DNA from: Argopecten irradians
Lineage: Eukaryota > Mollusca > Bivalvia > Pectinida > Pectinidae
Assembly: GCF_041381155.1 (NCBI RefSeq)
Contig: NC_091142.1
Coordinates: forward strand, 4,219,778-4,283,777
Direction: 5' to 3'
Length of the DNA: 64,000 nt
Shown piece by piece: positions 14,399-62,163 of the stretch. How positions within the stretch are numbered: position 1 is the stretch's first letter; every line of letters begins with the position of its first letter. The notes below the pieces were generated by a model, which made no database searches, was not told the DNA's origin, and saw nothing but the letters and a program-made list of their open reading frames with translations. The translations under genes were made by a program, and so were the position numbers.

Positions 14399-14403
14399 AA
14401 AGT

Positions 14404-39933: not shown

Positions 39934-39937
39934 TTAA

Positions 39938-40075: not shown

Positions 40076-40079
40076 TGGC

Positions 40080-40500
40080 GTAGACATTGCTGTTAAAGAC
40101 TGAATATCCTGATGCTTATAATCGCATCGCAATACGGGTGCCTTTTAGTAATCAGGTTGTCCGTCTGCCTGTCGATCGGTCCGTCCGTCTGTATGGTTGT
40201 CTGTCCGCCTGTCAGTCCGGCTGTCTCGCTTTTTGTTACCACTATTTAATTGTTACCCTTTTATCTTAGAAAGTACCAACTGGATCGGTCTCAAATTTTA
40301 TAGGTAGATTTCCCTTAGGATCTTGTTGTGCATATGACATTTTTGGATAGATCTATTAAAACAATGGCTCTGAAGGACATTAGTTGTCGATGGGCCATAA
40401 AACTCGTTCAAGCAAATTCATCAAGATGGCCAAGAGGCAGCCATCTTGTATTTTGATATTTACAGTTTAAAAAAAAGAAAAGATCTCTTTTTCCATTGTC
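40080..40500. repeat. Dispersed repeat with a (GTCTGTCC)n-like tract
   Basis: A pyrimidine/GT-rich tract (TCCGTCTGTATGGTTGTCTG and neighbours, 40155-40235) is followed by AAGTACCAACTGGATCGGTC and ends with AGGCAGCCATCTTGTATTTT. This resembles interspersed repeats I associate with molluscs. No gene is seen. Confidence 0.4.
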
Positions 40501-40792
40501 AGAAATATATACTACTTTGGTAGGCGCCGATAATTCTCTGGGACCTTTTGTACTATACTGTCATCAATCTTTTTCGAGTGATAGCTTCAATTGTATATTC
40601 CATTTTCTAATCGTAATGTAGATTGAGCGGGGCCTTTTCTGATATGTCAGTGTTTTAGTTTTTTTACAGGAATCGTCTTCTGAACCTTCAATAACATAAA
40701 GTCACAGTAAAATTCTATATATCGTCGATTTCTTAAACGGAGCCAAAAACGAGGTCCCCGTTCCGTTTTAGATTACATGTATACCAAAAATA

Positions 40793-41168
40793 GGAACCAG
40801 ACCTGAGTTCCTTTTAACCCCACGCTTGCAAATTCCATGTTAAAGCTGACGATGCAAGTTAAAAAATATATATTTGAGATTTAAAACATTTTTTTTTCAA
40901 ATATCGTTTCTGAGACAACCCTTTGCGTTTCTAAGGACGGGCAGTCGCCATTTTGTTTGAACTCTGCTTGGATAGAAAACGCCTACCGGCCCCTAAATAA
41001 AGCGCATGGATCGACACACTTGCGCTCTATCATGTACATATAGACCTAGCAGTTGTCCACTGTGTATCACCTACTAATACGTAAAAAAACACTAACCTGT
41101 AAATCTGTGTAGGGCTTATTTTAGCAAGAATACATGTCAAATCCTCTAAGTTGTCATTTAGATGCTTG
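40793..41168. repeat. Left copy of a direct repeat of about 380 bp flanking a retrotransposon
   Basis: This 376-bp segment matches 42602-42985 with a net 8-bp length difference and scattered substitutions. It begins GGAACCAGACCTGAGTTCC (related to the satellite head) and ends GATGCTTG. The retrotransposon lies exactly between the two copies. Confidence 0.85.
41097..41164 (-). CDS. Putative host exon, copy A
   Basis: The minus strand has an acceptor (TATGACAAG) before 41164 and a GTTAGT donor after 41097. The 68 bases read HLNDNLEDLTCILAKISPTQ then IYR with no stop. Copy B at 42914-42981 encodes the same residues with one silent change (CCT for CCC), and its donor is the stronger GTAAGT. I do not recognise the protein. 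The retrotransposon's 3' end lies four bases before the acceptor AG of this copy. Confidence 0.4.
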
Positions 41169-42601
41169 TCATAACCTAAATACAATCCCTGGATTGCAGC
41201 TCCACAGACGTCATCAGCCAGGTCCACCTCTCCTTGAACGTTTCGACTTTGAACGTCCTCAAAATGGCGAGTCGACAAAGGTTGGCCAAATCACTGCCCG
41301 TCTGTGGATAGTGTCCAGCTCATGTGTTGTCGTCTCCACCACAGCCAGCTGGACGACTTCTCTGCTGTTCTTGACAGTCGGTCCACTGCTGATTTTCTGT
41401 CTCTGCCCTTCACACCCAGTGCTGCAAACATGCTTCATGGGGAATGTGCAGGTAATCCTCTGCATCCTATCTCCACCCTAGGGCCCCGATGTCTCCTACA
41501 AATTCTTCATACTTCCCCTTCTTTCGCTCAAATGCCTCCTCACATCTTTCTTCCCATGGAACTGTCAATTCCACAGTGACCATTTTCTTTCCCTGCGTTG
41601 ACCATATGAGGATATCTGGACGCAGATTGGTCTGGATGATTTCGGGGGATACCAGTCTTCTGTCTAGATCGACCCTCATCTCCCAGTTCTGTGCGCCGTC
41701 AAGGATACCCCCCTGGTGAACAGTTGAAGAAGTGTGTCCTCCCTCCTCGCCTCGTACAAAGTTGATGAATGTACAACCCTTAACAGGCTTCCGCTTCTAA
41801 TCCTCTCCCTCTCCAGGATGTCAGTCAGTTCATTTAGCACCTTGTCATGGCGCCATCTGTAGCGTCCTTGCGTAAGGGCGACATTGTATCCTGATAGTAC
41901 AAGCGCAAGGTTCCCTGGTCGGTTGCACAATGGACAGTCTGGAGTCTCAGTCAAGCCCCACCTATGGAGGTTAGTAGGCGAGGGAAGCAGGTCGTAAACT
42001 GACCTCAGCAGGAACTGGATTCGGCAAGGTTCCATAAGCCAGATGTCCGACCAAGACAGTCTTCTGTCTTTAGTTCCCCACCACGTCCATGCTCCCTTGG
42101 CTCCCAATATCCACCACTTTGGCCTTCCTGATTTCCTCCTCCCTTTTCCTGATGTTGTCCTGTACCATCTTCCTCTTGCCGGCTTTTTTTGATGTCCCCC
42201 AGCGCTGCACATGACTTGTACCCAGTCCCTGGCATCATACGCACGTTGTACCAACGATACCTTGATGTCTCAGGCGGCTCTCAGCTGCCTCTACTGCGTT
42301 GCTTGCAGACCATTTTCCTCCCCGTTCTCGTCTCTATGCCCGCGAATCTGATGTTATCGTCTTTTGAGTGCCTCACAGTCATCACCTGTCTTGCCTTAAT
42401 CACCTTGAACTCCTCAACCAGTGATGAAATTGGGAGCTGTAGTTTGGCTGATGAGCTGTACAGGCCAACGCTCGTGAAGCTTGGGGGTACTGCTAGCCAT
42501 CTTCGCAAGAACTTGCTGATGGTTCTTTCCAGTGCCTCTACTGTCGTTGTTGTAACCTCTTACAATGTGCGCGGCCACGTCAGACGAATCCTGGGATCCA
42601 C
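41169..42601 (-). mobile_element. 5'-truncated R2-type retrotransposon copy
   Basis: Read on the minus strand from 42600, the copy begins in the reverse-transcriptase thumb (RRWLAVPPSFTSVGLYSSSA, LVEEFKVIKARQV). It continues through the CCHC region (CPLCNRPGNLAL, where the expected H and last C are L and Y). It reaches the restriction-like endonuclease at 41467-41679 (LRPDILIWSTQGKKM, VTVELTVPWEE), which keeps the PD and E-x-T/K-type core. The C-terminal tail reads REVVQLAVVETTTHELDTIH. The 3' end GACGTCTGTGGAGCTGCAAT in reverse lies at about 41190-41215. It is a second copy of the family at 25880-28390, oppositely oriented. Confidence 0.85.
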
Positions 42602-42985
42602 GGAACCAGACCTGAGTTCCTTTTAACCCCATGCTTGCAAATTCCATGTTAAAGCTGACGATGCAAGTTTAAAAAAATATACATTTGAGATTTAAAACAA
42701 TAATTTTTTTTTTCAAATATCGTTTCTGAGATAACCCTTTGCGTTTCTAAGGACGGGCAGTCGCCATTTTGTATTAACTCTGCTTGGATAGAACACGCCT
42801 ACCGGCCCCTAAATAAAGCGCATGGATCAACACACTTGCGCTCAGTCATGTACATATAGACCAAGCAGCTGTCCACTGTGTATCACCTACTTATACGTAA
42901 AAATCCCACTTACCTGTAAATCTGTGTGGGGCTTATTTTAGCAAGAATACATGTCAAATCCTCTAAGTTGTCATTTAGATGCTTG
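42602..42985. repeat. Right copy of the direct repeat of about 380 bp
   Basis: It matches 40793-41168. Sequence to its right (ACAAAATAAAATTCC) and to the left of copy A (ATACCAAAAATA) would be contiguous with a single copy if the retrotransposon were absent, as expected for a long target-site duplication. Confidence 0.85.
42914..42981 (-). CDS. Putative host exon, copy B
   Basis: It has an acceptor TTTATTTTGTCAAG before 42981 and a strong donor GTAAGT after 42914. The 22 full codons encode the same peptide as copy A. The T-rich acceptor suggests this is the ancestral exon context. Function is unknown. Confidence 0.45.
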
Positions 42986-43689
42986 ACAAAATAAAATTCC
43001 AACACAAGTGAATAGAAATCCAAATTGATTATCATCGTACTCGATGCTCTCGACTGGCTATATACACGTGACGTAGCTGTCCCAAACGGGCGACAACTAC
43101 CAAGGACACACACGTGTCGATGTAAGTGTAAATTTTGTATATATTGAAGTGTTTTATTAGTTCGTATTATACATATTTTGGGATCTAGCTGACAACACAT
43201 TTATGTATTTCTTCATTGAAATCTTGTGAGTGCAGTGTTTATCTTCAGTTTGACATTGTTATTTGCAATATCACGGCATGTGTATCTTAGACCAGGTATG
43301 TTTAGAATGATGCACGTGTGTCAAGTCCCGTGCTTTTTTATAAGGGGTGGCCAGTGGTGGTTACTAAGCAGAGCAAAAGAAAAATGGCTGCCACTTTCTT
43401 GGATACAGCACCGTTATACAATGTAACTAGGGGATATCTCAAAAACAATTTTCGACAAAAATATTTCATTATATATATACATGTATATTTATTTAGTTTC
43501 AAATGCATGCTTTTCAACTTGCATTGTCAGCTTTAAGTTTACGTGCTTTTTTTACTGGCCAATGAGCGGAGTTCGTTTATTATGATTCCCAAATGTTTAA
43601 TTAGAATATTTTATTGGACAATTTTGACGTTTTCTTATCCAACAAGGAATAACAGTCAAGGTCATTCATATTTAAACTCTTTTGAAGAC
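42986..43689. other. Unassigned stretch, possible promoter-like segment
   Basis: No gene is fixed. Around 43065-43120 there are CACGTGACGT and ACACACGTGTCG motifs followed by a good plus-strand donor (GATGTAAGTG), which could mark a first exon. This is too weak to call. Confidence 0.3.
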
Positions 43690-45850
43690 GAATTCTTCTT
43701 CATCTCGCACGCATGGGTTAGCCAAACCGCATGACCTCTGGCCTAGAATCAGAGCATATCGGGATATACGTTATGCAGCCAGTAGCCGTTTTCGAGGAAA
43801 TCAACCACACCGAAGATTTCGCATGCGACACGCTGATTTGAATGAGGACTCGGTTCTTTCTGTCTTGTTTTGAAGAAAATTCAGACATTGAAGGCCATTA
43901 CCTCGCAGGGGTCAGCACCACCCAAGAAGAAGGCTAGATCTTCAGCTCCCAAGTGTACTGTGCGGTCGAAGTCAAAGCCTTGCTTCAAGGGCAACAGAAG
44001 GGTAAGAAGAGTATAAACCCTCAAGGGGACAGGGAGAAAAGTTCCTGATTAATTTTCCCCTCCTTGATCGTTCCATACGAAAGGTCTCTTCTGGAGAACT
44101 CAGATACAGCTCCTTCTCCTGCAGATGAGTCTTCGGGTTAGGAAACACCTAGGAGGGTCTCTATCTTCCTCGTCACTATCTTGTTGTAGCAGATCGACTG
44201 TTCGCCTTCCTCCCAAAGTCATTAGAAGGAAATCACACACGAGATCCACCATTTGCGTCAAGGTTTATCATCTTTCATCCATCGGGGGATCCAGAGAAAG
44301 CACTTGCCATTCAGGAGGAAGTAAGGACCACGCTTTAAAAGGGTGCGGTCGAGGAGGTACCTATGGTAGAATATACATCCGGCTTCTATTCAAGAATGTT
44401 TCTTATCCACAAGAAGTTGGGAGCGTCCCATCAGAAGCTGCTAGTTTTTACGGGATTTCTGCACTACGGGGAAGACATGTTCACATCTATTCTTTGGAGC
44501 GGAACACCCGTCTGGTCCTGAAACGTTTGATCAAAGTCGGCTTCATTCCTTCAAGACTCCGAGATGTACCCTTCCAGGACTTTGTCTTCAGAAACCGTTT
44601 CAACACAATTCAGGGTATTGTCCTTCCACCTTTGGAGAAATTCGAAAATGCCTCTTACTTTCATCTCGGCTGGTCCAACGTCAATATTCGTTGGTTTCAG
44701 TGTTTTGTGTTATATCAACGCATGGGGTTTCTCGGTGGTGTACTCTGAAAGGCAATTTAAAATATCCTGCAGGGGGTTTCGTTGTGTAGGCCAGCTCCAA
44801 CCATGACCATGTTCACGGATGCGTTCACGGGAAGGTTGTTGGCTTACCTTGACAGAGCACAACGACATGCTGGAGATGATGGCTTTTCTGTTTGCTCTGC
44901 ATGCTTAACAGAAGATTCTGCATTACAAGGGGGGTTTGTGTGACTACGAACAACTCTACAGATGTCGCGTATATAGAGAGAAAGGGAGATACGATATCAC
45001 GTCCTTTGTGCCCTCGCTATCCGTATTTCCGTATTCTTCCCATCTGTCAGGAAATGCAGTTGACTATTTTAGACAAGCATCTTCCAGGAAGGTTGAATGA
45101 TCTGGCGGATAATCTCTCCAGGCGCCACTAGCCGGTTCTAACAGAACGGCAACTAAATCCTTCGATCTTCGAGGGCATTTGTCATGCTTGGAAAATGCCT
45201 CACATAAACCTTTTTGCCACTTTCTTGAATAACCAGTTGCCAACATTTGTCTCTCAGTGCCAAACCAAATGGCTTGGGCTGTGGACGCACTATCTCTGAA
45301 TTGGTAGGAATTGCATGCTTATGCAGTCCCGTCAATGCATGCTTATGTATTCCCGTCATTCAACCTGGTGGACAGGGTTCTACATATCGAAAGCATCATT
45401 GTCCCTCCTTCCGATAGCGCCACCGTGTCCGAGACAACACTGGTTTCCGGAGCTCTTGTCGTTTCTGGTGGATGTTCTTTGGTTTTCCCACCCAGAATCA
45501 TGCTCCTGCGCAAGCCTAGGCCCGAGACGTTACATTCACGTCCTGAGATCGTCTACCTTCACTCATGGAAGTTTTTTCATGAGTCCTCTCTCAGACAGGC
45601 TTTTATTCGGATATGTCAGCTCGCATCGCCCGATCAATTAGGTCTTCCTCTTCTGCCGTCTACCAGTCACGATGAAAGATCTTCTGTGAGTGGTGTATCT
45701 TCAGAAAGATTGATCCGGTCATGGCCTCTGCCCAGCTGCTTGCGAGTTTCCTTATTCTTGTTGACTAGTGAGCGCCACCCTGTCCCTGGTAGTATTGCAG
45801 ACTATCGCACAGATACTGCCAGTGTACTTTTCATGGTAGACCAGAGGTAG
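43690..45850 (+). mobile_element. Decayed DIRS-like (tyrosine recombinase) retrotransposon
   Basis: Fragments in changing frames follow the order of a DIRS polyprotein. RT start: GFYSRMFLIHKKLGASHQKL (about 44380-44440). Palm end: RDVPFQDFVFRNRF (about 44563). RNase H: TMFTDAFTGRLLAYLD near 44807, then VAYIERKGDTISRPLCP (44963) and KHLPGRLNDLADNLSRR (45078). Linker: INLFATFLNNQLPTFVSQ (45195), AWAVDALSLNW (45270) and HWFPELLSFLVDV (about 45440). Start of the tyrosine recombinase: SIADYRTDTASVL (about 45790). Frameshifts, stops and an internal RT deletion make it non-functional. The basic stretch 43690-44120 may be the gag-like part. Confidence 0.75.
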
Positions 45851-46980
45851 AAACTTCCATTTCTTTGTCTGCCTTGATTTGGGGGTTCAGTCTCGACAGG
45901 CATATGGTACAGTAGTTAGCTCCACAGTGGAACATAGAACACGTGTTATGGGGGCACCATAATGTTTGTAACGTTTAAGACTGTGTTCCTTCTTACTCTT
46001 GCCTGATGCCGCGGGAGGAGTGATATATGTGCATTGCCTATTCGCTCTTCGCGCCTTCGTTGGGCTAGATATACCTCTGCCATTACCATTCTCATTTATC
46101 ATGTCGTTTCTTCTCGATGGGTCCTTGTTCCATGACATCATCTGCCGGTTGACGTGGTCAGTCTGCTTTCACTGACCTTCACTGTCTCTTTCCTCCCAAT
46201 CAGATGGGCAGATTTCCTTGGGTGCGGTTGTGGTGACTCAGTCTCTGACTGCTCCTCCTCAGTAGACATTATATACATTTGTGGTTTTTAACTGTATACG
46301 AGAGCAGGTTTCACAATGGTGCACCTCTTTTCACAAGGAGGTATATCCATTTTTTATTCCTTTCCTTCGGGGGTTAATTTGCCATTTGACTAGGCTGACT
46401 TGCTTCGGACTCTCTACTACGGAAAGACGCTTTCGTATACTAAAGTTGTGGTAGCGTATTGCTGAACTGAAATTGAGATTTTTCAGTGAAAAACCAATTT
46501 TTACAATGTAATACTTTATGGGGTCCCACAGTAGTTTATCCCCTTTCCTCCTCAGTCATTTTCCTCTTATGGCTACATAAAGATTTTAGAAGAAGGGATA
46601 CCACTCTATGTTACTCTCGTCAAATACGAGATAAGGTACGGTAGGGTAACGGGGTTCACAAATCTTATTTTTGTCAAGGCTACAAAGATTGGACAGATAG
46701 CGTGTTTGCATTCTAAACGTATGGATAATATTACTGTATATCATGAAGAGTGGTTTTACATTGATACACCTCAAATGTACATATGAAAGACTTCTTCTCT
46801 GAATCTAAGCACAGGATATAAGTCATATTGCAATGGTAGCATCTTTATTGGATGGGGATTCAAAATTATGCAAATGGTGTAGCTTACGTCCTTGGGTTCA
46901 GACCCCCGTTTATAAAAAAAAATGGTTCCACATCTCTCCAATGAAGCTTTAGACTAAATTAAAACTTTTCTTCATTCCTA
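45851..46980. other. Probable 3' remnant of the DIRS-like element, otherwise non-coding
   Basis: The reading frames degrade after 45850. TGAAATTGAGATTTTTCAGT and CTTTATGGGGTCCCACAG near 46470-46535 look like element non-coding termini, but I could not define the end. Confidence 0.3.
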
Positions 46981-46984
46981 CAGA

Positions 46985-47230
46985 AGAAAATGGATTTTAA
47001 AGAATTTGCAATATTTCCACTACTAGTCCTCGCTCCTCAGGCCTCCTGGGGGCCAGGGCCACCGTTCACACAAGGAAGCTTCAGCCGAATTTTCGTCAAA
47101 ATTCATTAAGCAATTCAGGACTAGTAGAGATTTTTTGTGAAAAAGTTGACAGACGAAGGACTGACAACGGAAACCAGAGGCCGCGGTATAACATAAGCTC
47201 ACCGGCCCTTCGGGTCAGGTGAGCTGTTGC
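46985..47230. repeat. Interspersed repeat ending in a TTCG-loop hairpin
   Basis: TCCTGGGGGCCAGGGCCACC and a terminal hairpin at 47196-47225 characterise the repeat. The hairpin arms AGCTCACC and GGTGAGCT are extended by GGCCC/GGTC around TTCG. Hairpins of this AGCTCACC type are very common in molluscan repeats as far as I recall. Confidence 0.5.
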
Positions 47231-47461
47231 ACGAAACTCGGGTTTGGTTTCTAGTTTAGTAAAAGGTTCAACGAATTTTTAAAGAAACTCAGGTTTGTGT
47301 GTCAGCTTCGTTTAAAAACTCAACGCTATAGAGATTTCCACTGTTTATCGATGATAAATGCTTCAATTACAATTAATTGATTACATTTGTAATTACGCAT
47401 CTTATCATAAGTAGAATTAAAAATAAACAGAACCTCGCTCGCTGATCAAGGATGCAAGCAT

Positions 47462-50400
47462 GAGGTTAAACGGAACTCGGGTCTAGTTCCGAGTTACGTT
47501 TAAGCTTAAACGGAACTGGGGTATGGGTGTTAGATATGTTTCAGAAAATACATTATGTGCTAAAGTGATTAATTCTGAGTTGTATCATTGCAGCAAAATC
47601 CAGAGTTCGATTCCAATATACAATATGTAATTAAACATGCAATTTGAGGTAGGAAACCTATTAAACGGAACTCGGCTCGTTGCAAAGTATTCGTGTTAAA
47701 CGGACTCGGGTCTGGTTCCTAGTTCCGTTTTACTTAAACGGAACTCGGAACTGGAAGTCGATCGAAAACTAAATCAATGTGGATTTACCAATATTAATCC
47801 ATTAAAAAAGTCAACAGGCAACATTTCTAATATGTCCAAAGCACTTTGACTGTTTTCATCTAAAATGATAGAGAATTTCCTTAAACGGAAACTCGGAACT
47901 GGTTCCTAGTTCCGTTTTACTTAAACGGAACTGGGAAATAGGAGTTGATCGAAAACTGAATTAAAGTGGATTCATCACTAGTAACCCATGAAAAAAAGAC
48001 AACAGGCAACATTTCTCATATGTCTTAGGCATATAGAATGATTTTATCTAAAATGATAGAAAATTTCCTTAAACGGAACTCGGAACTGGTTCCGAGTTCC
48101 GTTTTACTTAAACGGAACTGGGAAATGGAAGTATATCGAAAACTAAATTAAAGTGGATTTGCCACTAGTAACCCATGAAAAATGACAACAGGCAACATTA
48201 TTCATATGTCTTAGGCATATAGAATGATTTTATCTAAAATGATAGAAAATTTCCTTAAACGGAACTCGGAACTGGTTCCGAGTTCCGTTTTACTTAAACG
48301 GAACTGGGAAATGGAAGTCGATCGAAAACTAAATTAAAGTGGATTTGCCACTAGTAACCCATGAAAAATGACAACAGGCAACATTATTCATATGTCTTAG
48401 GCATATTGAATGATTTTATCTAAAATGATAGAAAATTTCCTTAAACGGAACTCGGAACTGGTTCCGAGTTCCGTTTTACTTAAACGGAACTGGGAAATGG
48501 AAGTCGATCGAAAACTAAATTAAAGTGGATTTGCCACTAGTAACCCATGAAAAATGACAACAGGCAACATTGTTCATATGTCTTAGGCATATTGAATGAT
48601 TTTATCTAAAATGATAGAAATTGTCCTTAAACGGAACTCGGAACTGGTTCCGAGTTCCGTTTTACTTAAACGGAACTGGGAAATGAAAGTCGATCGAAAA
48701 CTAAATTAAAGTGGATTTGCCACTAGTAACCCATGAAAAATGACAACAGGCAACATTATTGATATGTCTTAGGCATATTGAATGATTTTATCTAAAATGA
48801 TAGAAAATTTCCTCAAACGGAACTCGGAACTGGTTCCGAGTTCCGTTTTACTTAAACGGAACTCGGAAATGGAAGTCGATCGAAAACTAAATTAAAGTGG
48901 ATTTACCAATATTAATCCATTAAAAAAGACAACAGGCAACATTTCTCATATGTCTTTGGCATATTGAATGATTTTATCTAAAATGATAGAAAATTTCCTT
49001 AAACGGAACTCGGAACTGGTTCCGAGTTCCGTTTTACTTAAACGGAACTGGGAAATGAAATTCGATCGAAAACTAAATTAAAGTGGATTTGCCACTAGTA
49101 ACCCATGAAAAATGACAACAGGCAACATTATTCATATGTCTTAGGCATATTGAATGATTTTATCTAAAATGATAGAAAATTTCTTTAAACGGAACTCGGA
49201 ACTGGTTCCGAGTTCCGTTTTACTTAAACGGAACTGGGAAATGGAAGTATATCGAAAACTAAAATAAAGTGGATTTGCCACTAGTAACCCATGAAAAATG
49301 ACAACAGGCAACATTGTTCATATGTCTTAGGTATATTGAATGATTTTATCTAAAATGATAGAAAATTTCCTTAAACGGAACTCGGAACTGGTTCCGAGTT
49401 CCGTTTTACTTAAACGGAACTGGGAAATGAAATTCGATCGAAAACTAAATTAAAGTGGATTTGCCACTAGTAACCCATGAAAAATGACAACAGGCATCAT
49501 TATTTATATGTCTTAGGCATATTGAATGATTTGATCTAAAATGATAGAAAATTTCCTTAAACGGAACTCGGAACTGGTTCCGAGTTCCGTTTTACTTAAA
49601 CGGAACTGGGAAATGAAAGTCGATCGAAAACTAAATTAAAGTGGATTTGCCACTAGTAACCCATGAAAAATGACAACAGGCAACATTATTCATATGTCTT
49701 AGGCATATTGAATGATTTTATCTAAAATGATAGAAAATTTCCTTAAACGGAACTCGGAACTGGTTCCGAGTTCCGTTTTACTTAAACGGAACTGGGAAAT
49801 GAAAGTCGATCGAAAACTAAATTAAAGTGGATTTGCCACTAGTAACCCATGAAAAATGACAACAGGCAACATTGTTCATATGTCTTAGGCATATTGAATG
49901 ATTTTATCTAAAATGATAGAAAATTTCCTTAAACGGAACTCGGAACTGGTTCCGAGTTCCGTTTTACTTAAACGGAACTGGGAAATGAAATTCGATCGAA
50001 AACTAAATTAAAGTGGATTTGCCACTAGTAACCCATGAAAAATGACAACAGGCAACATTATTCATATGTCTTAGGCATATTGAATGATTTTATCTAAAAT
50101 GATAGAAAATTTCCTTAAACGGAACTCGGAACTGGTTCCGAGTTCCGTTTTACTTAAACGGAACTGGGAAATGAAATTCGATCGAAAACTAAATTAAAGT
50201 GGATTTGCCACTAGTAACCCATGAAAAATGACAACAGGCAACATTATTCATATGTCTTAGGCATATTGAATGATTTTATCTAAAATGATAGAAAATTTCC
50301 TCAAACGGAACTCGGAACTGGTTCCGAGTTCCGTTTTACTTAAACGGAACTCTGGAAATGGAGTAGTCGATCGAAAACTAAATTAAAGTGGATTTACCAA

Positions 50401-50716
50401 TATTAATCCATTAAAAAAGAAAACAGGCAACATTTCTCATATGTCTTTGGCATATTGAATGATTTTATCTAAAATGATAGAAAATTTCCTTTAAACGGAA
50501 CTCGGAACTGGTTCCGAGTTCCGTTTTACTTAAACGGAACTGGGAAATGGAAGTAGAATCGAAAACTAAAATTTATAACCATGAAAAAAGACAACAGGCA
50601 ACATTTGTTAATATGTCTTCAAGGTATATTGAATGATTTTATCTAAAATGATAGAAAATTTCCTTAAATGGAACTCGGAACTGGTTCCGAGTTCCGTTTT
50701 TTACTTAAACGGAACT
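47462..50716 (-). repeat. 186-bp satellite array 2, opposite orientation
   Basis: The monomer is the reverse complement of array 1 with the same 186-bp period (for example 49571 to 49757). Almost all monomers are the GGCAAATCC/ATGAATAATG sub-type, which is a minority in array 1. The left edge (47462-47760) is diverged. The right edge stops at 50716, directly against the 15-bp intron end of the next exon. Confidence 0.95.
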
Positions 50717-50731
50717 AATATCATGATTTAG

Positions 50732-53700
50732 CACAATGGAATTGATTGACGAGGCAGATATTCACATAACGGTAAACACTGACGTCCGTCCAGAGGTAAA
50801 AACAAGAGAGAAACGACACATGTCAAACGTCCTGAAGACCCTGCTTACAGACATTGAATGGAACAATACCATGGATACTATGATACCCTTCAACAAAGAC
50901 AACAAAGAGATAAGCTTGAGTAAATCATCTGGGGTCAAACAGCCAGTCCTTAACGTTACTGCAGAAGATGACGAGAATCTAGCTTTGACTAACGACACCG
51001 AATTCAAGTTTACTTGTTCAAATTGTGGCGGTTCAACGAAACTGAAGTATAAACTGTACGTGTATCATAAGAAAAATAATATGAATCGAAATATGCATTT
51101 ATTTATGAAGTAACTGATATTTATATATCTAAATTACAGCTAGTCAGAATAATGTGATTTCAAAAAAATAAATATTTAAGTAATGTCGGAAAAATAAAGT
51201 TCATCGTGCATAGATATGTTTCACTTGATTCGGCCAGTTGCTTTACAACTCATTTAAATACTTGAAATATTACTATATCTATAAACATTTTAAAAAAATT
51301 ACACTGACATCCTAGTTTGCGGTCTTTTTCGCATTTTAATTTTTGCTCTCAAACATATTGTACTGGGATATAAGTTCGATATGGTAATCTCAAAAAATAA
51401 AATGCATTAGCTTAATTTTAGAATCGAAGAAACAGTTTTTTTTCCAATTTTTGTTTTAAGTAATTTAAGTTTTATGTGCCATAACTTGGAACAATTTTGA
51501 CATGTTATTTTTTCTTCGATAATCTATTGAAAATAACAAATTTCGATGAATTAACAGTGAAAACCATTCAAAGGTACTGGCAAACAAATAAAAACTTATT
51601 TTGATTCGTGAATAGAAAATTACGGCACATATAGCTTTAAATAGGTTGAATTTTAACATTGATATATCTATGTTACAGACGTGTCAAAATCCACAAAGTC
51701 AACAATAAGCCTGTTATTAAGGTCTTCAGAACAGAGGTGATTGATGTATTCAACATTTTTATCATTTTTTAAGATTAAAAAGCAATGTTTATATTTAATT
51801 TTAATAATCATTACAATAACGCTTTACTAATTTGAACGGCATTTTTAGTTATTAATGTGGAAATCAATACTGTTAGAATTTGTCATTTAATGACATCATG
51901 ATTCTGCACCTTTTATAGATCTTAGAAAGGATAACAAGCATCATATTTCTTTACTTTCGATGCACGTGATCCAACACTATTGTGGAAATAGGATTGCGGG
52001 GTTCATGGTAAGGGAGGCAACTCATACTCGAACATCTTATAGCATAGTTGACCTTTACGTTAACGTTGTGTACCACAAAGGTATTTTTTTATAATAAACT
52101 TAAATTGTACAGTGATCCAAGTAATCATTTATTTGTTAACAACGTATTGTCATATGTCAGCGTTCGTTGTTTCTGACTTTTGTTTGACACGTATTGATTA
52201 CGTTACAGCTTTTCAATATTGCTTTTAGGTTGAAGGAGAGTTTAGCGGTCATTACGAATTCCATGCGTCTGGCAAGACCAATATGACTTTGAGTTTTGAT
52301 GGACCTCTATGGAAGACACAGCCTAAAATGTATCTGAAAGTTCCCATAGCAACCTTCTCTCGCCTTCCTCCTGTGGAGGTGATAGTTCAGGCTCATACCG
52401 AGGCGTTCCTAGCCGTTAACATGACAGCATTGAAACCATTCCAAATCTCCCATAATGTAACAACAGATGGGACATTTGTATATAGTACGTATATTAAATG
52501 TATAAAACGAATTTTGCGAAAATGATATTTAACAGTTCAGTGCCTTCTTTGAGCTATTGTTTCTGTGGACTCTTCAGTATGGATTTCAAATCCGCTACAT
52601 TTAAGTTATTTATTGATCTTTCATAAAGATAAACAATGATTGATCCTTCACACGATATGGTTAATATTTGTGTCTATTTGTCTAAGTTGGTGTATTTATA
52701 ACATAGCTGATGAAATGCAGTCTGGGGAATCCACGGGCACTATGACATTTCCTGATTGGATAACAGTTGGTACAACATCAGAATTAGAAACTGATGAGAT
52801 GTTCAGCTTCCGGGCGATAGTAACACATAAGGTATTTGGTTAACAATTTTAATTGAAATCTTACTTTTATATTTAGTTTATATTTTTAACATATTACATC
52901 CGCTGTTTTACATTTTCTGGCTTACTTATTTTCTTTATTTGTCAAATAATGGCTACATACAGTTTAATATTGTTGTCTTGAAATAACAGAAACATTTGTT
53001 TACATTATATGTTGTAGATTCACCTGAAGCCTTACATAGGATGGTCGCTCCGAGATGTAAAGATGGATTTTGGTGCTCCATATGAAATACAGTAAGTGAA
53101 ATGAAATTGTTATTTTAATATGCATTCGTGCCATCAATTATTACGTTGATATAATTTGAGTATTTAACTATCATTTTGAATAAAAACAAGCTTTATGTGT
53201 TGTTGTGTGAACGAATAAAAGACGAGTCATCTTATGTCCCCAATTATGAATTATAAAAGTATGGCACATATGCTAAGATAATAAAGATAGAGCGTGTACA
53301 ATAGAAACGTTACTGATGCATAATTGGATATTGTAATGATTTCGATATAATTTCTGATACTATAATAAGTGCCGTTTTGAATTTACATGGCAGTTACTTA
53401 CAAATTAAGAAGAGATAATATCATGCATAATGATACGTTTGACTGAAGGTTTGTTTGTGTATTTGTTTTATTTGTTGTCATTATTGCGATATTTGTAATA
53501 CTATTCGTAACTTTTTTTGTTTTATCTAATCTCTTTGCATCCACCAACTACTGACACCTAACACTAACTTAACTGACCATGCATGTGGAGAGTACGCGAT
53601 CTAATTATACTTTTGCTTCATTTTAGATTGAACCAACACCTGGAGACCAAGTCAGATATAGCTGACACAACATATTGCACCAATAGTGTGTCTGAGGTGA

Positions 53701-53761
53701 CCGGCTCATGGAAACACGACACAAACAAACTAGATGTAGAGGCTTTTGACATCGAAATATG
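50732..53761 (+). CDS. N-terminal region of the Hedgehog/M15-like protein (exons 1-5 of window)
   Basis: Residues 1-304 carry no domain I recognise. R24-E-K-R27 fits an R-x-K-R furin site. A CSNCGG knuckle-like pair is followed by alternating hydrophobic/polar strands (KLKYKLY joined to VEGEFSGHYEFH), then NMTLSFDGPLW and AFLAVNMTALK. This looks like a beta-rich extracellular domain with N-glycosylation sites. The exon 1 donor (TAC then GTGTAT after 51059) is the weakest splice call; it was chosen because it alone gives phase 0 to match the acceptor at 52229. The exon 2 end (TATA then GTACGT) and exon 3 start are linked by phase 1. Confidence 0.75.
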
Positions 53762-56700
53762 GTATACTTGCTAGGAATATTTGTAAATGCCGCTATATAT
53801 GTCATGGCCGAGTCTTTCGCATCTTTTTTATTTAAAAGTTCCTTATGAAATACAATAGAAACAACGAAAGTAGCATGTGCTTATGACGAATTATATAAAT
53901 AAGGAATTCTATGTTTTGTATTTACATTGAAATAAATACGATAAATAAAAGGAATCTCAGTAATGGAGCCATATTGGCAATGTGGTTTCTACTACAATAC
54001 CAATCATCAGATCAATTATACCTAAATTAAAAACATTTTGCTCTAGGGACGTCCTGTTGGAAAACGAGCAAATAGCTAACACATCGATATGTAAAATAGA
54101 GATCGCCAAACATTGCAGAGCAAACTGTAGAAATCCTGTTATCAATGGGTTTAGTGAGTCGACAATGGAGGGAGTATGTGGGGATGCCGAGAACCCAATC
54201 TACAGGGACAGCAGTAACTTCCATAAGTAAGATTACAAATAATTGATTGTATATGACTGATTTCTCCTCTCTACAGAAAAGCTGTTGTCGTTTTTAACTA
54301 AAGATTATAATGATGAGTTCCATAGAATTATAGCGTCTTCATCATGATTATTAAGGGAATCCATATATATATAATGTAGAGCACAAATGGCATTTAGAAT
54401 TTTCGCATGGCGATAGGATAAGAAAAATATGAAAAACACCTCCTTATATAAGAGTTATAATTTTTTTATAACATATTATATAACATCAATGACGTAGATA
54501 TCCCTTTCGAATCCTTGATGGTATAATCTTGCATTATGCTTCATCTATGTATATATTTGTTCGTTTTTTGCCCAACACAGCCTTAAGGAACTGTTCGGGA
54601 ACCTGATTGACTTCCCTGCTACGGACTCACAGTCTGACTGGTGTGGACAGCCCGGAATGACGTGTATAGGTTGTGATGAAAAGGGCAGCTCGGTTTGTGC
54701 TAACCGGCTGCTTACGGCACAAATGGCGGCCACAACTACTCGATTGGCTAAATTTATTAAGTCTGAATGGCCTAACCGTAAGTTGTGTTATTTGCTATAT
54801 CACTGAGAAAATGTCTCATTACTAAGACACAATGTGTTATATACACTAAATGGTTCGTTGATCCGAAGGTCTAAATTTGACTTTCATGTCAAAATGATAA
54901 ATTGACAATCATTATTGATATGAATTTATTTACTTGTAAACTATATGTAGAATCGTCATGACTTTTTTTAAATTGCGGTTAGTCTGTATTTTCATTATAA
55001 ATTGTAATGAATTGATATTACTTCTATTAGTCCCGCGATTTTGTTTAAATGATATATTTATCTATTTTTTCTAAACTTGTCCAGATTCCATCACTAAGTA
55101 AAAATTTTGGTAATTTTTTGAGACTAATAAATAATCTAAAAGCTAATATGACTTATTGAAGGTTTTTATGTGACTAATAATCGTGATTGAAAATGGGTAG
55201 ATTCATTTTCTATTGCATTTATGATGTCGTCAATATTTCAGGTAACTTGATCTTGAAAGAAGGCTGGAGCGAACCTACATCTCAGTACCCTGATGGAAAA
55301 TATGGCAACACGTCATTATATTACGAAGGCCGGGCAGCAAAGGTTGGAGTTAGCAAACCGACAACTTCTCTAGATAACAGCACAATGATGGAGGAAATTC
55401 CTGAAATAATCCACCGTCTGTTGGAGCTTACATCGTGTGCCGGATTCACATTTTATGAAAAGATGCTAGGCGCACAACAAAACATCATCAACACGTGCAT
55501 GAAGAAACCCGCGGCTCGCAGAAGGAGAAAGAAAAGAGAGGCGTCCCGAGAAGAACTTCACGATGCCGAAAAGCAACAATTTGTTGCCAAGTTAACGAAT
55601 TTAGGTACGAATTATGTTTCGGTTACAGACAACGTATTTTTTTCGGTAAAGAATACCACAGATTTTTTTTCTTAAGTCTATATGCTAATGGGAATGTTAA
55701 TGTCTTTCATTTCGTTCGATTTTTCCCGTTACCTCCTTCATATTTAGATAACTACTGGTTCTCTCTACTCTTTTTTTGATGCTATAGGCAGAACTTCTAC
55801 AATTTTATATTCATTGTCTTCTTGTGTATGGTATATGTAAGCTACCAAAGGGAATGTTGATTTATTTTATTTCTACAAATTTTCTTCGTAGTGTTAATAT
55901 ATGTGTGTGTTCCTCTTCTATTCAAAAGCAATAAAAGTTACGCCTACACCTCAAACCCATTTTGACACCCATTCTACCTACCCCAAGGATGTGGCCGTCG
56001 TTGATATCCTTGGTCCTGTGGACGAACCCTTTTCGGTGGACAATAACGCACAAATGAAAAGGTACGGAATCTATAATTCATACTTCTAAAATTTTACCTT
56101 AGAGTTATATTACAATTATAGTGTGAGTTGTTATATCTGTGTAAAAACAAACGACGTGCTGGACAATACTCTTTTCGTGCAGACATTACTTTAAATCAAA
56201 TTGTGTGCTATTAATATATGGAATATTTCAACAAGATTATATATCTTACATATGATTTATTTTGTGTAGATAACGAAATCCCATTTAAAGATGCTACACC
56301 GCTGACGAATGGTATTTTGCATTTATCAAAAACAGGAGCAGAGGAATTAGTATTTTTTCCTTCAGTTACAAAAGTTAATTTGTATCAATACCACCATTGA
56401 AAAATTTGGACTTATTTTACTTTCATTTTGTCTTATGTAACCAGGATGATGCAATATCCTCTGAATGACGTGGACTTTGACCCCGAGGGTCCTACCGACG
56501 CGTCCTGTGGTACAGACACGAGGCGATGTAAGGATTGTAAGACATACGAGGATGTGGAAGATCCCTGGGACTGGTGCCTCACGCGGACCATGACCCCGAG
56601 GATGGCCCTTAGACTTCGGCGGCTGGTTATTCTGAGTAAAATCAATCGTACGTTTCTCGCTTCAAATCATAAACTTTGAGAACAAAGTTTACATATATAC

Positions 56701-59700
56701 ATACACATGAATAGGAAACAATTCAGGTCGGTTTTGAAAATTATAAACTTCAAATTTTTCTTTATAGATTGTTTGAAGACCATATCACGTGTTGTCATTT
56801 GATTACACTACCATTCTGTATTTTAAATGATATATCTATCAACAGCGCATGACCTAATTTTAAACCATTATTACTTCTGGGTGATGTGGTTATGGCATTT
56901 ATGCAATGATTACAAATAAAATTACTGTTATTTTGGTAAAGTTATTAAGTTCGAGGTGAAAAATTCCGGATATTGTATTTAAAAAATGTACTTACTCGCT
57001 GTGAGATCTGTTGGGCATTGTAATTTCAACAGTAAGAGGTCGGAAATATTAACATGATAGTGACAATAATCCCATGCGAATATAAGCAAATATACACTAT
57101 ACGTATGTAGATGCGTGTACGATGTTTCTTACCAAATTGGCCAATTGTCACCTCCCAATTCCAATAAATTTCGAAACGTTTCCAGGTTAATTCTGAATAA
57201 TAAATAAAGATCTCGCCATTGTTGGAAATATTATAATCTTCTTGTGTTCTTATAATTTAAGGTACAATTTTGTGAGATATCGTATGTTTATCTCAAAATA
57301 ATATATTTGTATTCCATTCATTTTCTTTTGTAGCGACTGTAAAAGTACCACAGGAAAGAGAATATACCGATGTCGCCATATATAGGAATGTTGGCAGGTA
57401 AACAGTTTTGTTTTCGACATTATACTGATATTGTTATTATTTATGCTATAGCAAGTAGTTGTCCTGCTCTCAACATCAATACTACATCCGTTCCGTCTAT
57501 ATTGATACTGTTTTCCATTTATGCTATAGAAAGTACTTGCATTATATTAAAACTACACCCATTCCGTCTTTCTTCAAAAATATATCTCCATGTGCAATTT
57601 TGTAGGAAATTCCAAAAAGCTTTTTATAGGAATGTTTATTTTTTTATTTAGATTTAAGACATAATTTGTTTTCTTGTGAATTAATTTCATATCACGGTTG
57701 TATGTAAATTATTGTGTTATAGGTAGATGTGTGTGTCGCATAAGAGAGCTTGTATGTAATGTAAAATAAGAGAATAATTATGCTACCGTAAATATATTTC
57801 ACATTAAAAGTCGTTTTCTGTTTCATTTAGTTAAGTTTCATGATGAACAAGTTTTTAATATAGTTAATGACTTTGTTCAGTGTTGTTAATTTATTTGTTA
57901 TATAACAGAGCTTTGCGATTGGAATCGGGAAGTCCGGGTATATCCCAGAAGTCCTTGGCCAATATGGCGATTTCTGCCGGATTTGACTACATTTCTCTAG
58001 CCGGAACTTCCGGTGTTGACGTATTTGTACGGGATCAAGCCGGTTATTGGGCCACTTTAGAGGTCTACCCCCGTATCAGTGTGCTGCATGTCAATCCGTC
58101 AACATCTGAAATGGACGACTACAAACCTATCTATGTGAAACCGGAATCTGCCGAGACTATACCTGGCGTTATAGATGGAATCAATGAAAAACTTCCATTG
58201 TCAGACAATTACATGATATCGGATTTTAAGCCATTTGGAAAACGTTATTTCCGAATGGACGTTCGTCTGTTAGAATGCATTGAAGAGGTCACTAGTGATT
58301 TAGATAGAAAACTGAAAATTTTGGCAGGCTACAAAACGTCTTCTATGAATGATGAAAATATTGAGGAGAGACACCATGAAGAAAAGATTTATCATACCAG
58401 AGGTCAGGCCGTGCAGATATCGGGTATAAAAGAATCAGATGGCGTCGCAACCTTTGACCTTACAGAAATCGCGTCATCCTTGATAAAGAGCTGTGTCCCT
58501 GCCCTCAGTCTGAAACAGATGTCATTGAGTATTGGTTGTCACGCGAGGTTTGTTTACGTCGACGTGAGAGAGAAGAAGGCGGATGTGTCCGTTAATTTCT
58601 GGAATGTGGACAATGATCAATTATACAAAACCGTCAAGGAATTGGTAGATGTTCATAAGAAAGGTACAAATATTTGGTGTGAAACAAGATTTAAAGATGA
58701 ATATTTCTGAAAAGAATTATCGAATTAATATACATTTATATTTTTTGCTTGATTTTTTTAGATCTCTATGATTCAATTATCCGTCCATCACGAATTTGAT
58801 TTTTTTTTACATTCGTGACATTAATCAACTGTTGATCATCTATAAGTACTGGCCAAAGATACGACACGCATTAACAAGCTTTATTCAATAAACTTGATTT
58901 AATCACATGTTTTACTTAAAACAATATGTACATGTATTTTAACAGTCTTGTGATAGATGTTGTAATATATGATTCCGTGTCACAGGGGGAGTCCTGGTGC
59001 AAAGCAAGAAAACTGGAACAAAATGCGCAAAACATCCATTAGGAAATGATGCATTCTACATCAAATATGGAGACAAGTATGCTTTTTATGAATATTGATG
59101 AGATTTTTTTTATTTTAAAATACAGTTTTGATATATGTAACAGGGTGCAGAATTTATAATAAATTTAATCACTGCCTCTGCCAGAGATCGAACTCGGAAC
59201 ATCTGGATTACTAGTCTGACGCTCAACCGATCGAGCTAAAGAGAAGTTCTCTCTAGGCAAGAGGTATATTTTGCCTAGTATTGACCAGGGTTACATTTAC
59301 ATATGTACATGTAACACTGTGATTTAAAGGAACATATACTAAAGAATAAGATGTACTTTGCAAACTATGCAGGCATCATACAAAGAAATAAAAATTGTTT
59401 TGTTTTGTTTTCCGTAACTACCTGAACATACAATCTTTATGACAGCATCAACAAAGAAATAAAAATTGTTTTGTTTTGTTTTCCCGTAACTACCTGAACA
59501 TACAATCTTTACTCCCGACAAAAAGAAATTTCTCGTATCAAAATTTTAAACACAATAATAAAGTTATTCTAATTATCAGACTTATTGTATTATTTACAGT
59601 CATTCCATTGAATATTCTAATATATTTTTCCTAGAGGTTGTAAGCCGGCGGGGTACTATAAAAACTTCTGTGAGGATACGAAATCACACAGGAAAACTCT

Positions 59701-62163
59701 CTCTTCGAGTCTCTCCTCTCATCTTTGGGCCGGTGCCCAGGTACTTTCCAAACCGAAACTGGACAGACAGACGGAGGACTGTTTTGTCAATAATTGTGGA
59801 GGATGCATCGGCAAAGGTATCATAATAATCAGAAAACCAACCGCTGTATTTTCTTATTTATTTATTTATCTTACATGTACACCTGATGGTCATGTCAAGA
59901 AAAATCGGTAGTCAATTGAACCATAAGTATTTGTTTATGTCGCATCTTTATTTAAAGATGCTCCACTCCTGACACAGAATAAACGATACTCATTAATTGA
60001 ACAATAACTGGTGTTAACTCAATTGTAAAAGTATGTCTAGTTAACACACAAAAATATTATATTGAATAACTTGTTTTGCTTTTTGAAACGCTTTTAAAAA
60101 CTTTTCTCCGAAGGTACCTATCACCTGCTGTAATTGGTTTCACTACTTTCCTCTTACATTTTCTTTTTGTAATATATTATACACGTATAAAAATGATTAA
60201 ATGTTTCTTGTTGAAACTTAAGTGTTCCTAATAAATATTATAGGCATTTTCCTACACTGACGTGAACTTGGATTCGACTGTCTTCTATATACCACATATT
60301 AATACCATTTAAAATGTCTTTTGACTGTTGTAACTCCTTTTATTTTACAGGTGACGTATGGAACAAGAAGTTACGGGCGTGTTATGTTCTTCTTAAGATG
60401 ATCGTAGATGCCACCGCCTCCCCTTTCCCAGACATGACGGATAATGCGGCATTCTTTAATACAGAAAACCAGGACTCGAAGATCCACTCCTTGGCTTGCC
60501 ATGACGACAGCGTTTGTGTAGAAAATCTTCCTCTCTTTTCAAACTTTAGTATGTACATGTAGTTCATTAACATATTTGCCTAATATGGATCTTCGATATA
60601 CAATATATATGAATTGCATCTAAGGCAAACATTTTTCCGCATTCTTATCTTATAAGGCAGGTTGCAAAGAAGCTATTCTTTCAAGAAAAGGTCTTCTGAG
60701 TGATCGACTAGTAATAGTAATATGACTCATTGAATTGATGCAAACGAACATTTTAATGAGTATGAAGTCGTATACTGTGTAATCATTGCTCCCGCTTATA
60801 TTGATCAATTCTTTTCTTTAGCAAGATTGTGTCCAAGATACCAGAATATCATGTAATCATTTTATACGTACACACTTTGCATTGAAGAAGAAGTTGTCGT
60901 TTGCTATGTTTTGATCACCGTTTTATGAAGACGCCACTCCGATTATTTTCCAACGTATTTAAAACTTCCAAGAGAACGAGCGGAAAAATCTGATGTTCTG
61001 TGATAACACAGATTCATATCTAAAATCATATTTATGAGAAAAGAAACATTATTCCTTTTTTGTTCTTAATCTTATTTCATTTACATGTTTCAGTTACAAT
61101 GGTTAATGAGAAATACCGTCCATTTGCCGACAAAAATATTGAAGAGATGATTTATGGTCCTGTTGATAATCCATCGCCAGTACTCGATATGCTGGAACAG
61201 GAAATGTCGTATAGGGTCAAAGGTCATATCCGGGTTTATATTGAAACAAAGGATGACTTGTCTGCTTTGGAACAAGTGTTAAAGGTAAAACAAATACTGC
61301 GCGTGATCCACCACATATAGCCGAATGATCTGCAAAGTATTGCCTTATTTTTTTTTTATTTATATATATATATTTTTTTTTCATTCGATTTATAGTCAAC
61401 TTATGCAATAAAATAGAATTCATTGTATATAATATGGGTCCAATAAGTTCTATAAACGGTTGTATTCCAGTTTATACTGCCTCCTATAAGCGTATGTCTG
61501 TAGGATACGAACTGCTAAAAGTAGTAAATATGGAGCGAAGAAGTAGTTCCAACAATGTGGACAAAATATTGTTGAATTTTCGAGGCGATCTGCCCCTACC
61601 TCTTTCTCAAGACACAAAAGAACAACGACTGACATCCTTAATATGTAATTTTGATTCTTCTTAGTGTGGCTTGATAAATGAGCAGATCGCCTGGAAAATT
61701 CGACAATATTTTGTCCACCATGTTAGAATTATCGATTTGCTTCATGGTGTAGCTGGTGTATATACAATATTACATATTAATGCTCAATAAGTATGTTGTC
61801 TCATTTTATTTTTTTCCAATCAGAAACATAGTTACAAAACCACTATGATAAAGCAATACGCTTAATTTACATGTTGTATTTCAGATTCTTATGGTTTATA
61901 ACAAAAACGTGACTGACGTCTCGATTGAGATCACGGATGAATCACTGCGAGACTTCACAAGCAGTAGATTGCAAAAGAAACTAGACAAATGGAGTAGTTC
62001 CGTATGTCCAACACGGAGTCGACAAGTTATCACCCCTTACACCATATCTCTAATCCCAGATGGTCGAACGCGCCGAAGTATAGAACTCAGTAAGCACCGG
62101 AACAAGCGGAAGGCGCAGATGCGGAACTGGGAACTGGACTGGGCATCCCAAATCAGTCTGTAA
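50732..62163 (+). CDS. Large secreted protein with Hedgehog/M15-peptidase-like modules (17 exons, 5' incomplete)
   Basis: Exons: 50732-51059, 52229-52484, 52707-52831, 53018-53091, 53627-53761, 54047-54226, 54581-54777, 55242-55604, 55929-56061, 56445-56647, 57334-57397, 57909-58663, 58986-59076, 59635-59816, 60351-60548, 61094-61284, 61885-62163. All introns are GT-AG and all phases agree, giving 1,249 residues from the first ATG (50736). That ATG is internal: the exon begins with an acceptor in phase, so earlier exons with a signal peptide are missing. Eight or more N-x-S/T sites and many cysteines suggest secretion. Residues 386-505, 617-727 and 798-906 resemble the Hedgehog signal domain / D-Ala-D-Ala peptidase fold. 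Most zinc ligands are lost, so a binding or structural role is likelier than catalysis. No Hint autoprocessing domain is seen. The function is unknown. Confidence 0.85.
54047..56061 (+). CDS. Hedgehog-like module 1 and polybasic linker (exons 6-9)
   Basis: C386-x6-C393-x2-C396 and C404 precede a helix (AATTTRLAKFIKSEWP), then LILKEGWSEP, SLYYEGRAAKV (456-465) and SCAGFTFYEK (495-504). In Hedgehog proteins the same order is a basic helix, a VTEGWDE-type strand, a HYEGRAVD-type motif with two zinc ligands, and an AGFDWVYYE-type strand. Here the ligand His is Y458 and the Asp is K464, so zinc binding is probably lost. R523-R529 is RRRRKKR, a convertase-type site right after the module. Exon 9 (55929-56061) is a short linker joined in phase. 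Confidence 0.75.
56445..58663 (+). CDS. Hedgehog-like module 2 and M15-like module 3 (exons 10-12)
   Basis: Module 2 starts with C617-x6-C624-x2-C627 and C640, then a basic helix (TPRMALRLRRLVIL), a G684-R-A-L-R-L motif split by an intron, and LANMAISAGFDYISL (701-715), very close to the Hedgehog AGFDW strand, then VDVFVRD. Module 3 (798-906) reads LKILAGYKTSSMN, IYHTRGQAVQI (845-855) and FVYVDVRE (899-906). It follows the order of M15 peptidases (SGYRSxxxN, SxHxxGxAxDI, FVHVDVR). H847 is kept, but the Asp is Q854 and the last His is Y901. The large exon 57909-58663 holds the end of module 2 and all of module 3. Confidence 0.75.
58986..62163 (+). CDS. C-terminal region with a third cysteine cluster (exons 13-17)
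   Basis: C1016-x4-C1021-x2-C1024 and C1038 repeat the cysteine layout that opens modules 1 and 2. A helix (YVLLKMIVDATA) and HSLACHDDSVCVE follow. The later part has an amphipathic IRVYIETKDDLSALEQVLK stretch and a lysine/serine-rich helix. R1218-T-R-R1221 is a third convertase-type site, near the end. The gene stops at TAA 62161-62163. I cannot recognise a complete Hedgehog fold here; it may be a partial or strongly diverged fourth module. Confidence 0.7.
59140..59240 (-). mobile_element. tRNA-derived SINE in intron 13
   Basis: On the minus strand TTTAGCTCGATCGGTTGAGC (A box, 59221-59240) and GAGTTCGATCTC (B box, 59184-59195) flank an anticodon-like loop CTAGTAA. The arms are imperfect, so this is not an intact tRNA. 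The downstream part reads AATTCTGCACCCTGTTACAT. Confidence 0.6.
59372..59514. repeat. 71-bp tandem duplication in intron 13
   Basis: CAAAGAAATAAAAATTGTTT begins at 59381 and again at 59452, and both copies continue through GTAACTACCTGAACATACAA with a one-base length difference. Confidence 0.85.
61547..61728. mobile_element. 182-bp MITE in intron 16
   Basis: The left arm TGTGGACAAAATATTGTTGA and ATTTTCGAGGCGATCTGC pair with the reversed right arm (GGTGGACAAAATATTGTCGA, ATTTTCCAGGCGATCTGC). The arms are about 46 bp. No frame or target duplication is clear. Confidence 0.75.

Follow-up and report, generated by a model that had tools for sequence, protein, structure and literature searches.

The window analysed here is a stretch of 64,000 nucleotides of the Argopecten irradians genome (contig NC_091142.1, positions 4,219,778 to 4,283,777), and it contains a gene of a small family made up of the window gene (A), three further copies (B, C and D) and a broken partial copy (P). 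The gene appears to encode a long, probably secreted protein without a Hint domain, in which a recognisable Hedgehog domain (module 1) is followed by what seems to be a decayed tandem copy of it (module 2) and by a DD-carboxypeptidase-like domain of M15_2 type (module 3). On balance we favour the interpretation that the product is a probably secreted, furin-processed pseudopeptidase that acts as an extracellular binder.

Relationships of the three modules

Module 1 is the only part of the window protein that passes the cut-off of the Pfam family HH_signal (PF01085, 22.1 bits), with 31 bits in the spliced protein and 25.1 bits as a module alone; the corresponding score in copy D is 31.6 bits. 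Its phmmer matches are fly, Indian, Sonic and Desert Hedgehog, the best with an expectation value (E) of 9.3e-5, and a profile of module 1 built from the four copies matches Sonic hedgehog (Shh) structures in the PDB with E 3e-8. Compared by hhalign with a Hedgehog profile assembled from this genome's hedgehog and five bacterial Hedgehogs, module 1 yields 98.0% and E 1.6e-13, a score reached by none of 100 column shuffles, and exon 8 against Hedgehog-N scores 32.7 (0/200 shuffles). The Smith–Waterman comparison with the scallop's own hedgehog has a z score of 15.9 (0/500 shuffles). Judged by its sequence, module 1 is specifically of Hedgehog type and not a generic M15 domain.

For module 3 the Pfam evidence lies below the cut-off. 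Scanned alone, the module matches Peptidase_M15_2/DUF882 (PF05951) with E 0.0024, and this family is absent from the scan of all 1267 residues; the module 3 stretch of copy D, which is ~36% identical, matches Peptidase_M15_3 in the same place with E 0.07. For profile comparisons, 31 loci (L041-L071) were filtered for S[AG][YF]R and HxxGx[AL]x[DE], which left 19 M15_2 sequences and removed 12; a mixed M15 set comprised 24 sequences from 40 loci. Module 3 aligns with the 19 M15_2 sequences at 95.8% and E 7e-9, with a score of 59.2 against a shuffled maximum of 22.2 (0/200), and with the mixed set at 94.7% and E 5.7e-8. Hedgehog-N, which served as a yardstick, reaches 87.3% and E 3.8e-6 against the M15_2 sequences and 95.2% and E 2.7e-8 against the mixed set, so that of the two, module 3 lies nearer to M15_2, and both are about equally near to M15 at large. 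The M15_2 alignment spans the D-x-x-L helix, SGYR, an N, HxxGxAxD and FVHVD, and the four copies keep the GYK/RT (SYKT in B), N and GxAV core of M15. The likeness of module 3 to the own hedgehog is also above most shuffles (Smith–Waterman, z = 3.5, 4/500), and the same method finds no likeness above shuffles between modules 1 and 3 (397/500) or 2 and 3 (54/500). A scan of viral contigs with exon 13 gave four pattern stretches, none of them confirmed, and the scallop genome has no match to PF13539.

Module 2 (residues 614-745) has a decayed middle. Its first part, exon 11, aligns with exon 8 of module 1 at 69.6% in hhalign (score 27.6, shuffled maximum 16.4, 0/200). The two exons measure 203 and 197 bases and share intron phases, 2 on entry and 1 on exit, a likeness in length and phase that argues for an internal duplication. 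Its last part, the hairpin LANMAISAGFDYI...DVFVRD, includes AGFD and aligns with the last Hedgehog strands, with 85% and E 6.3e-6 over 28 columns in hhalign; the start of exon 13 alone matches Hedgehog at 93.4% (0/200 shuffles). Single-sequence Smith–Waterman comparisons of module 2 give z = 4.1 with module 1 (3/500 shuffles) and z = 4.35 with the own hedgehog (1/500). Exon 11 compared directly with Hedgehog is weak (5/200 shuffles), and splice fitting recognised no counterpart of exon 12 in copies C and D. We consider module 2, with moderate confidence, to be a decayed tandem copy of the Hedgehog domain.

The original prediction had assigned three segments of this chain to the Hedgehog/DD-peptidase fold. 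The similarities strongly indicate such homology for modules 1 and 3, and the case for module 2 is a moderate one. All of the motifs on which the assignment was based are present, namely EGW and YYEGRAA in module 1, SAGFDY in module 2, and AGYKT, HTRGQAVQI and FVYVDV in module 3.

Metal-binding positions

The zinc ligands of Shh are H141, D148 and H183 (PMC6027127). In module 1 the corresponding positions of copies A/B/C/D are occupied by Y/F/F/F, K/K/S/S and Q/Q/Y/Y, the last column falling in a gapped stretch, so that none of the three ligands is found in any copy; in the window copy H141 corresponds to Y475 (55319) and D148 to K482 (55340). In module 3 the first His position holds H/Y/F/F, the Asp position Q/Q/E/E and the last His position Y/Y/Y/Y, the window residues being H865 (58393), Q872 (58414) and Y919 (58555). 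Neither H-x6-D nor H-x-H/H-x-D, which make up the M15 zinc site, occurs in module 3. The zinc sites had been predicted to be lost, which is borne out for module 1 in all four copies; for module 3 the prediction has to be amended by the one His still present in the window copy.

Gene structure, gene family and selection

The coding gene on the + strand comprises 18 exons, spans at least 50732-62163 and encodes 1267 residues, with the 5' end missing. The model was built by hand, and GT-AG junctions were picked to preserve the frame, for which reason the open frame is no independent proof of the model. Independent backing is provided by copy B, from which all 18 exons were retrieved by tblastn and splice fitting, and DNA matches of more than 100 bases between A and B within the gene are centred on exons. 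All 18 window exons are open, and the in-frame reading ends at the stop codon 62161-62163. Exon 1 of the model is an internal exon, since copies C and D read into it in the same phase and without Met; the model thus lacks a 5' exon, together with any signal peptide. The span originally proposed, 54581..58663, runs from the first base of exon 8 to the last base of exon 13, and the residue numbers given with it agree with the present model; the gene extends beyond it by seven exons upstream and five downstream.

A search of the 846 Mb genome with residues 383-954 returned 22 matches, all accounted for by A, B, C, D and P. Copy B (C9:3.65 Mb) matches the window gene at 91% over exon 13 and at 62-96% exon by exon. 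Copies C and D, both on contig C3, match it at 36-46% per match and 28-48% exon by exon, and 10 of the 18 exons were recovered from each in the same order (1, 8-11, 13 and 15-18; not 2-7, 12 and 14). The gene is under purifying selection, with ratios of nonsynonymous to synonymous substitution rates (dN/dS) of 0.151 between A and B (1252 codons), 0.351 between C and D (903 codons) and 0.173 between A and P over exons 14-18 (310 codons); the A-D comparison is saturated. Partial copy P (L040, C9:3795001-3805000; ~3.80 Mb) is ~90% similar to the window gene, introns included. Its exon 13 is broken, with four stops by the count of the search and one inside the conserved part by translation, and its exons 14-18 are open. 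Within copy C (L034-L036, C3:61.95-61.98 Mb), exons 10-11 form a cassette that is duplicated internally, the two sets lying ~2.5 kb from each other.

One canonical hedgehog gene was detected in the genome, on contig C4. It gives the only HH_signal match in a single-exon search, a kind of search that misses split genes such as those described here. The only Hint match in the genome (C4:8346817) adjoins it, on a contig other than that of the window, and a Pfam scan of the 1267 residues with E up to 10 found no Hint, VWA or cadherin domain, in agreement with the original prediction that a Hint domain is lacking.

Predicted processing and secretion, and the C-terminal region

Furin-like sites occur at three places in all four copies: REKR or RVKR before the first domain, RRRRKKR or RRKR between modules 1 and 2, and RTRR or RRKR near the C end. 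The first is of the RxKR form, REKR in the window copy and RVKR in C and D. There are ten NxS/T motifs in all, six of them at residues 43-202 and one at residue 334, and no transmembrane-like stretch was found in the model, which lacks the 5' end (best 19-residue mean hydropathy 1.08). Taken together, these features fit a secreted precursor that would be cut into two chains. A candidate 5' exon at 45721 in the window was the sole one to emerge from two scans (B, C and D gave none) and was not adopted; the sequence upstream of the window gene has no match in the upstream stretches of B, C and D by tblastx or blastn. Residues 71-123 (50946-51727; the end of exon 1 and exon 2) match the CpXC family around a C-x2-C with E 0.0026, below the cut-off.

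The C-terminal 282 residues (exons 15-18, 59635-62163) are ~36% conserved between the diverged copies, with CFVxxCGGC and YGPxDNPxPVLD invariant, and match no Pfam family above the cut-off. The same exons were considered as a fourth module, with a Cx4Cx2C lead-in and SYRVKGHIRVYI, and this candidate was dropped. Its comparison with hedgehog was equalled in 322 of 500 shuffles; hhalign against Hedgehog gave 0.5%, with 4 of 100 shuffles reaching the score and a different stretch aligned; the mixed M15 set (44/100) and the M15_2 set (33/200) lent it no support; and comparisons of its pieces with modules 1 and 2 and with Hedgehog were matched by 50 to 198 of 200 shuffles. There was no PDB sequence match.

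Interpretation and alternatives

These results lead us to propose that the protein would enter the secretory pathway, where proprotein convertases would cut the conserved RxKR-type sites and release an N-terminal chain resembling Hedgehog and a C-terminal one resembling M15. Deprived of their zinc sites, the former substrate clefts would bind and not cut, and each chain may bind an extracellular partner in this way without cleavage; a peptidoglycan stem peptide, a proteoglycan or a binder of the Hedgehog pathway are possible partners. Of the original description as a pseudoenzyme family of extracellular binders, the homology, the loss of ligands and the absence of Hint are observed here, and secretion, binding and the fold itself are what we infer from sequence.

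Several observations weigh against this interpretation. No signal-peptide exon was found in two scans covering 10.9 kb for B, 2.9 kb for C, 4.8 kb for D and positions 38800-50716 of the window. Polybasic motifs are frequent by chance, and an extra RLRR (residue 670) falls within the counterpart of the first Hedgehog helix. Copies C and D are near-identical (dS 0.06), so that agreement of four copies amounts to that of two diverged pairs. As for the modules, module 1 has no match to the M15 profiles (hhalign E 0.23, 60/200 shuffles), the hairpin of module 2 has none to exon 9 of module 1 (hhalign, 29/200 shuffles), and the M15 score of module 3 depends on the set used, being 40.1% with one sequence, 49.6% with six, 87.9% with misframed rows and 95.8% or 94.7% with the 19 or 24 clean sequences. 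PDB sequence searches with module 3 and with a profile of exon 13 returned nothing relevant, and a single-sequence AlphaFold2 prediction of exon 13 gave no usable structure (predicted local distance difference test, pLDDT, 33.2; predicted template modelling score, pTM, 0.20). Module 3 of the window copy retains one of three zinc ligands, the His of HTRG (B, C and D retain none), and module 1 of A and B has a Glu, in a gapped stretch, at the place of the catalytic Shh E177. Finally, with Shh E90, E91, D96, E127, D130 and D132 as reference calcium ligands (PMC8052667), three of six places are held in the window copy (E90, E127, D132) and four in C and D (D96, E127, D130, D132), according to one alignment with gapped loops.

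The apparent partial retention of the calcium site would also suit a modulator of the Hedgehog pathway, in which the zinc-dead module 1 binds Patched, Ihog/CDO, Hhip or heparan sulphate as a decoy or competitor. This scenario is consistent with the specifically Hedgehog-type character of module 1 in Pfam and hhalign and its lack of an M15 match, with the presence of a true hedgehog gene in the same genome, and with the report that Drosophila Hedgehog signals although it has no DD-peptidase motif (PMC6027127). However, the alignment of module 1 with Hedgehog starts only at the calcium loop, and the N-terminal segment that binds Patched and is palmitoylated has no recognised counterpart, and we regard a modulator as rather unlikely. 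We give still less credence to a persisting peptidase activity, be it of module 3 or of the entire chain, that would depend on a rebuilt metal site, such as that of a peptidoglycan hydrolase in immunity or digestion. The conserved M15 core, the first His of the window copy and the Glu at the Asp place in C and D are compatible with it, as are the Rusticalin-like proteins of ascidians, reported to be M15-like animal proteins in which the catalytic residues are conserved (PMC6339383), but in all four copies Tyr replaces the third ligand His, and in three of them Tyr or Phe takes the place of the first.

It is also conceivable that module 1 is the sole real Hedgehog domain, and that neither module 2 nor module 3 has any relation to the fold, their motifs being due to chance. 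The sub-threshold Pfam scores of module 3 and its absence from the whole-protein scan agree with this idea, as do the uninformative PDB searches, the lack of likeness between modules 1 and 3 and the failure of structure prediction. It is nevertheless very improbable in view of the M15_2 match of module 3, of the matches of exon 11 to exon 8 and of the hairpin to Hedgehog, none of which was attained in 200 shuffles, and of the weak M15_3 match of copy D in the same place. Least credible of all is a decaying, functionless pseudogene. The broken copy at C9:3.80 Mb indicates that copies of the family do die, but the window gene has 18 open exons, a dN/dS of 0.15 relative to B, and long DNA matches to B that centre on exons.

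Relation to known proteins

Hedglets have been described from molluscs, echinoderms and cephalochordates, animals that also have Hedgehog, and are less conserved than Hedglings; they are without the catalytic residues, their calcium residues are not conserved, and their distribution was termed enigmatic (PMC8052667). The window gene resembles them in its Hedgehog-N-like domain with lost zinc ligands, in having no Hint domain, and in belonging to a genome that also has a true hedgehog. It is most likely the Hedglet of that paper, an orthology that we infer from a comparison with the description. In contrast to that description, the calcium site of the window protein seems partly retained, and the Hedglet sequences were trimmed to a calcium/zinc region of ~105 residues, to which the window protein adds a second Hedgehog-like module, an M15_2-type module, furin-like sites and an exon structure. 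In the literature searched, the accessible parts of which bear on this point, the name Hedglet appears only in PMC8052667 and the present architecture is described nowhere. The original suggestion that the protein illustrates the spread of the fold without catalysis thus has precedents in Hedglings and above all Hedglets; new, relative to the accessible descriptions, are the combination of several modules in one chain and a third module of M15 type.

Hedgling, found in choanoflagellates, sponges and cnidarians, shares with the window protein the Hedgehog-N domain, an incomplete zinc motif, the lack of Hint and, by prediction, the character of a large extracellular protein. Its VWA domain, which adjoins the Hedgehog part, and its cadherin repeats and transmembrane segment (PMC4054682) were not found in the window protein, the 5' end of which is missing. 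Compared with Hedgehog itself (PF01085 plus PF01079), the window protein has a module above the Pfam cut-off, and differs in its several modules, in the absence of Hint and of zinc ligands in that module, and in having no recognised N-terminal Patched/palmitate segment. Compared with Peptidase_M15_2/DUF882, module 3 differs in its replaced zinc ligands and in being part of an animal multi-domain protein. Lophohog, known from molluscs and annelids, shows the converse arrangement, its Hog/Hint part being joined to another N-terminal domain (PMC9695228).

Close relatives of the own hedgehog, at 60-67% identity, are encoded by six bacterial loci; in three flavobacterial ones among them (L005, L007 and L008; two Flavivirga, one Algibacter) an M15-like part appears to be followed by Hedgehog in one chain. 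Pfam scans of two of these three, L005 and L007, gave VanY with 51 and 54 bits and HH_signal with 179 and 176 bits. Tandem M15 and Hedgehog domains, as predicted by these matches, thus exist in bacteria too. The bacterial Hedgehogs belong to the same domain family but keep the zinc residues, and the order of their domains is the reverse of that in the window protein; we do not claim descent.

Feature coordinates and genomic surroundings

Two arrays of a ~186 bp satellite lie upstream of the gene in opposite orientation (32404-38829 and 47696-50716), with a palindromic core around AACGGAACTCGGAAC, and enclose ~9 kb with reverse-transcriptase-like fragments as read from open reading frames. The second array stops 15 bases upstream of exon 1. 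A degenerate 7 kb array of TTTGTTTGTTATACTC type with extreme AT skew occupies 8993-15982.

Table 1. Parts of the window gene, in window coordinates
Feature	Position	Strand	Basis
Exons 1-7, residues 1-383, N-terminal region	50732..54226	+	Splice model; exons also in copy B
REKR, furin-like site, residues 24-27	50805..50816	+	
Exon 8: Cys-rich lead-in (C-x6-C-x2-C) and first helix of module 1	54581..54777	+	hhalign; phases
Module 1, residues 422-524, split by intron 54778-55241	54696..55468	+	Pfam PF01085, hhalign, PDB Shh
Exon 9: EGW strand, YYEGRAA, CAGF, then polybasic RRRRKKR (55517-55537)	55242..55604	+	
Exon 10: linker, modules 1 to 2	55929..56061	+	Splice model
Exon 11: Cys-rich lead-in and first helix of putative module 2	56445..56647	+	hhalign vs exon 8; phases
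Exon 12: decayed middle of putative module 2	57334..57397	+	Splice model
Exon 13: end of putative module 2 and entire module 3	57909..58663	+	Splice model
Hairpin of putative module 2, LANMAISAGFDYISLAGTSGVDVFVRD, residues 718-745	57952..58035	+	hhalign with last Hedgehog-N strands
Module 3, residues 817-922, predicted M15_2-type domain	58249..58566	+	hhalign vs M15_2 set
Exons 14-18: Cys-containing conserved C-terminal region	58986..62163	+	Splice model, hhalign
RTRR, furin-like site	62065..62076		

Implications

The architecture bears on the question of how the Hedgehog ligand arose from bacterial cell-wall peptidases. We may speculate, as an improbable scenario, that Hedglets are no reduced Hedgehogs and instead form a separate and old animal lineage in which Hedgehog-type and M15-type domains have stayed together with all clefts turned into binding sites, possibly rooted in bacterial VanY-plus-Hedgehog proteins such as the flavobacterial ones; if true, the bacterial Hedgehog domain would have reached animals by a second route, one without Hint. 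The chain of zinc-less Hedgehog-type and M15-type domains is a concrete architecture to seek in other animals, and its modules offer a natural experiment on the parts of the fold that remain important once zinc is lost. The family also provides candidate Hedgehog-like proteins that could not be matured by Hint. Our analysis suggests that in this scallop a fold known from a signal and an enzyme has been put to new use in a probably secreted binder without catalytic activity.

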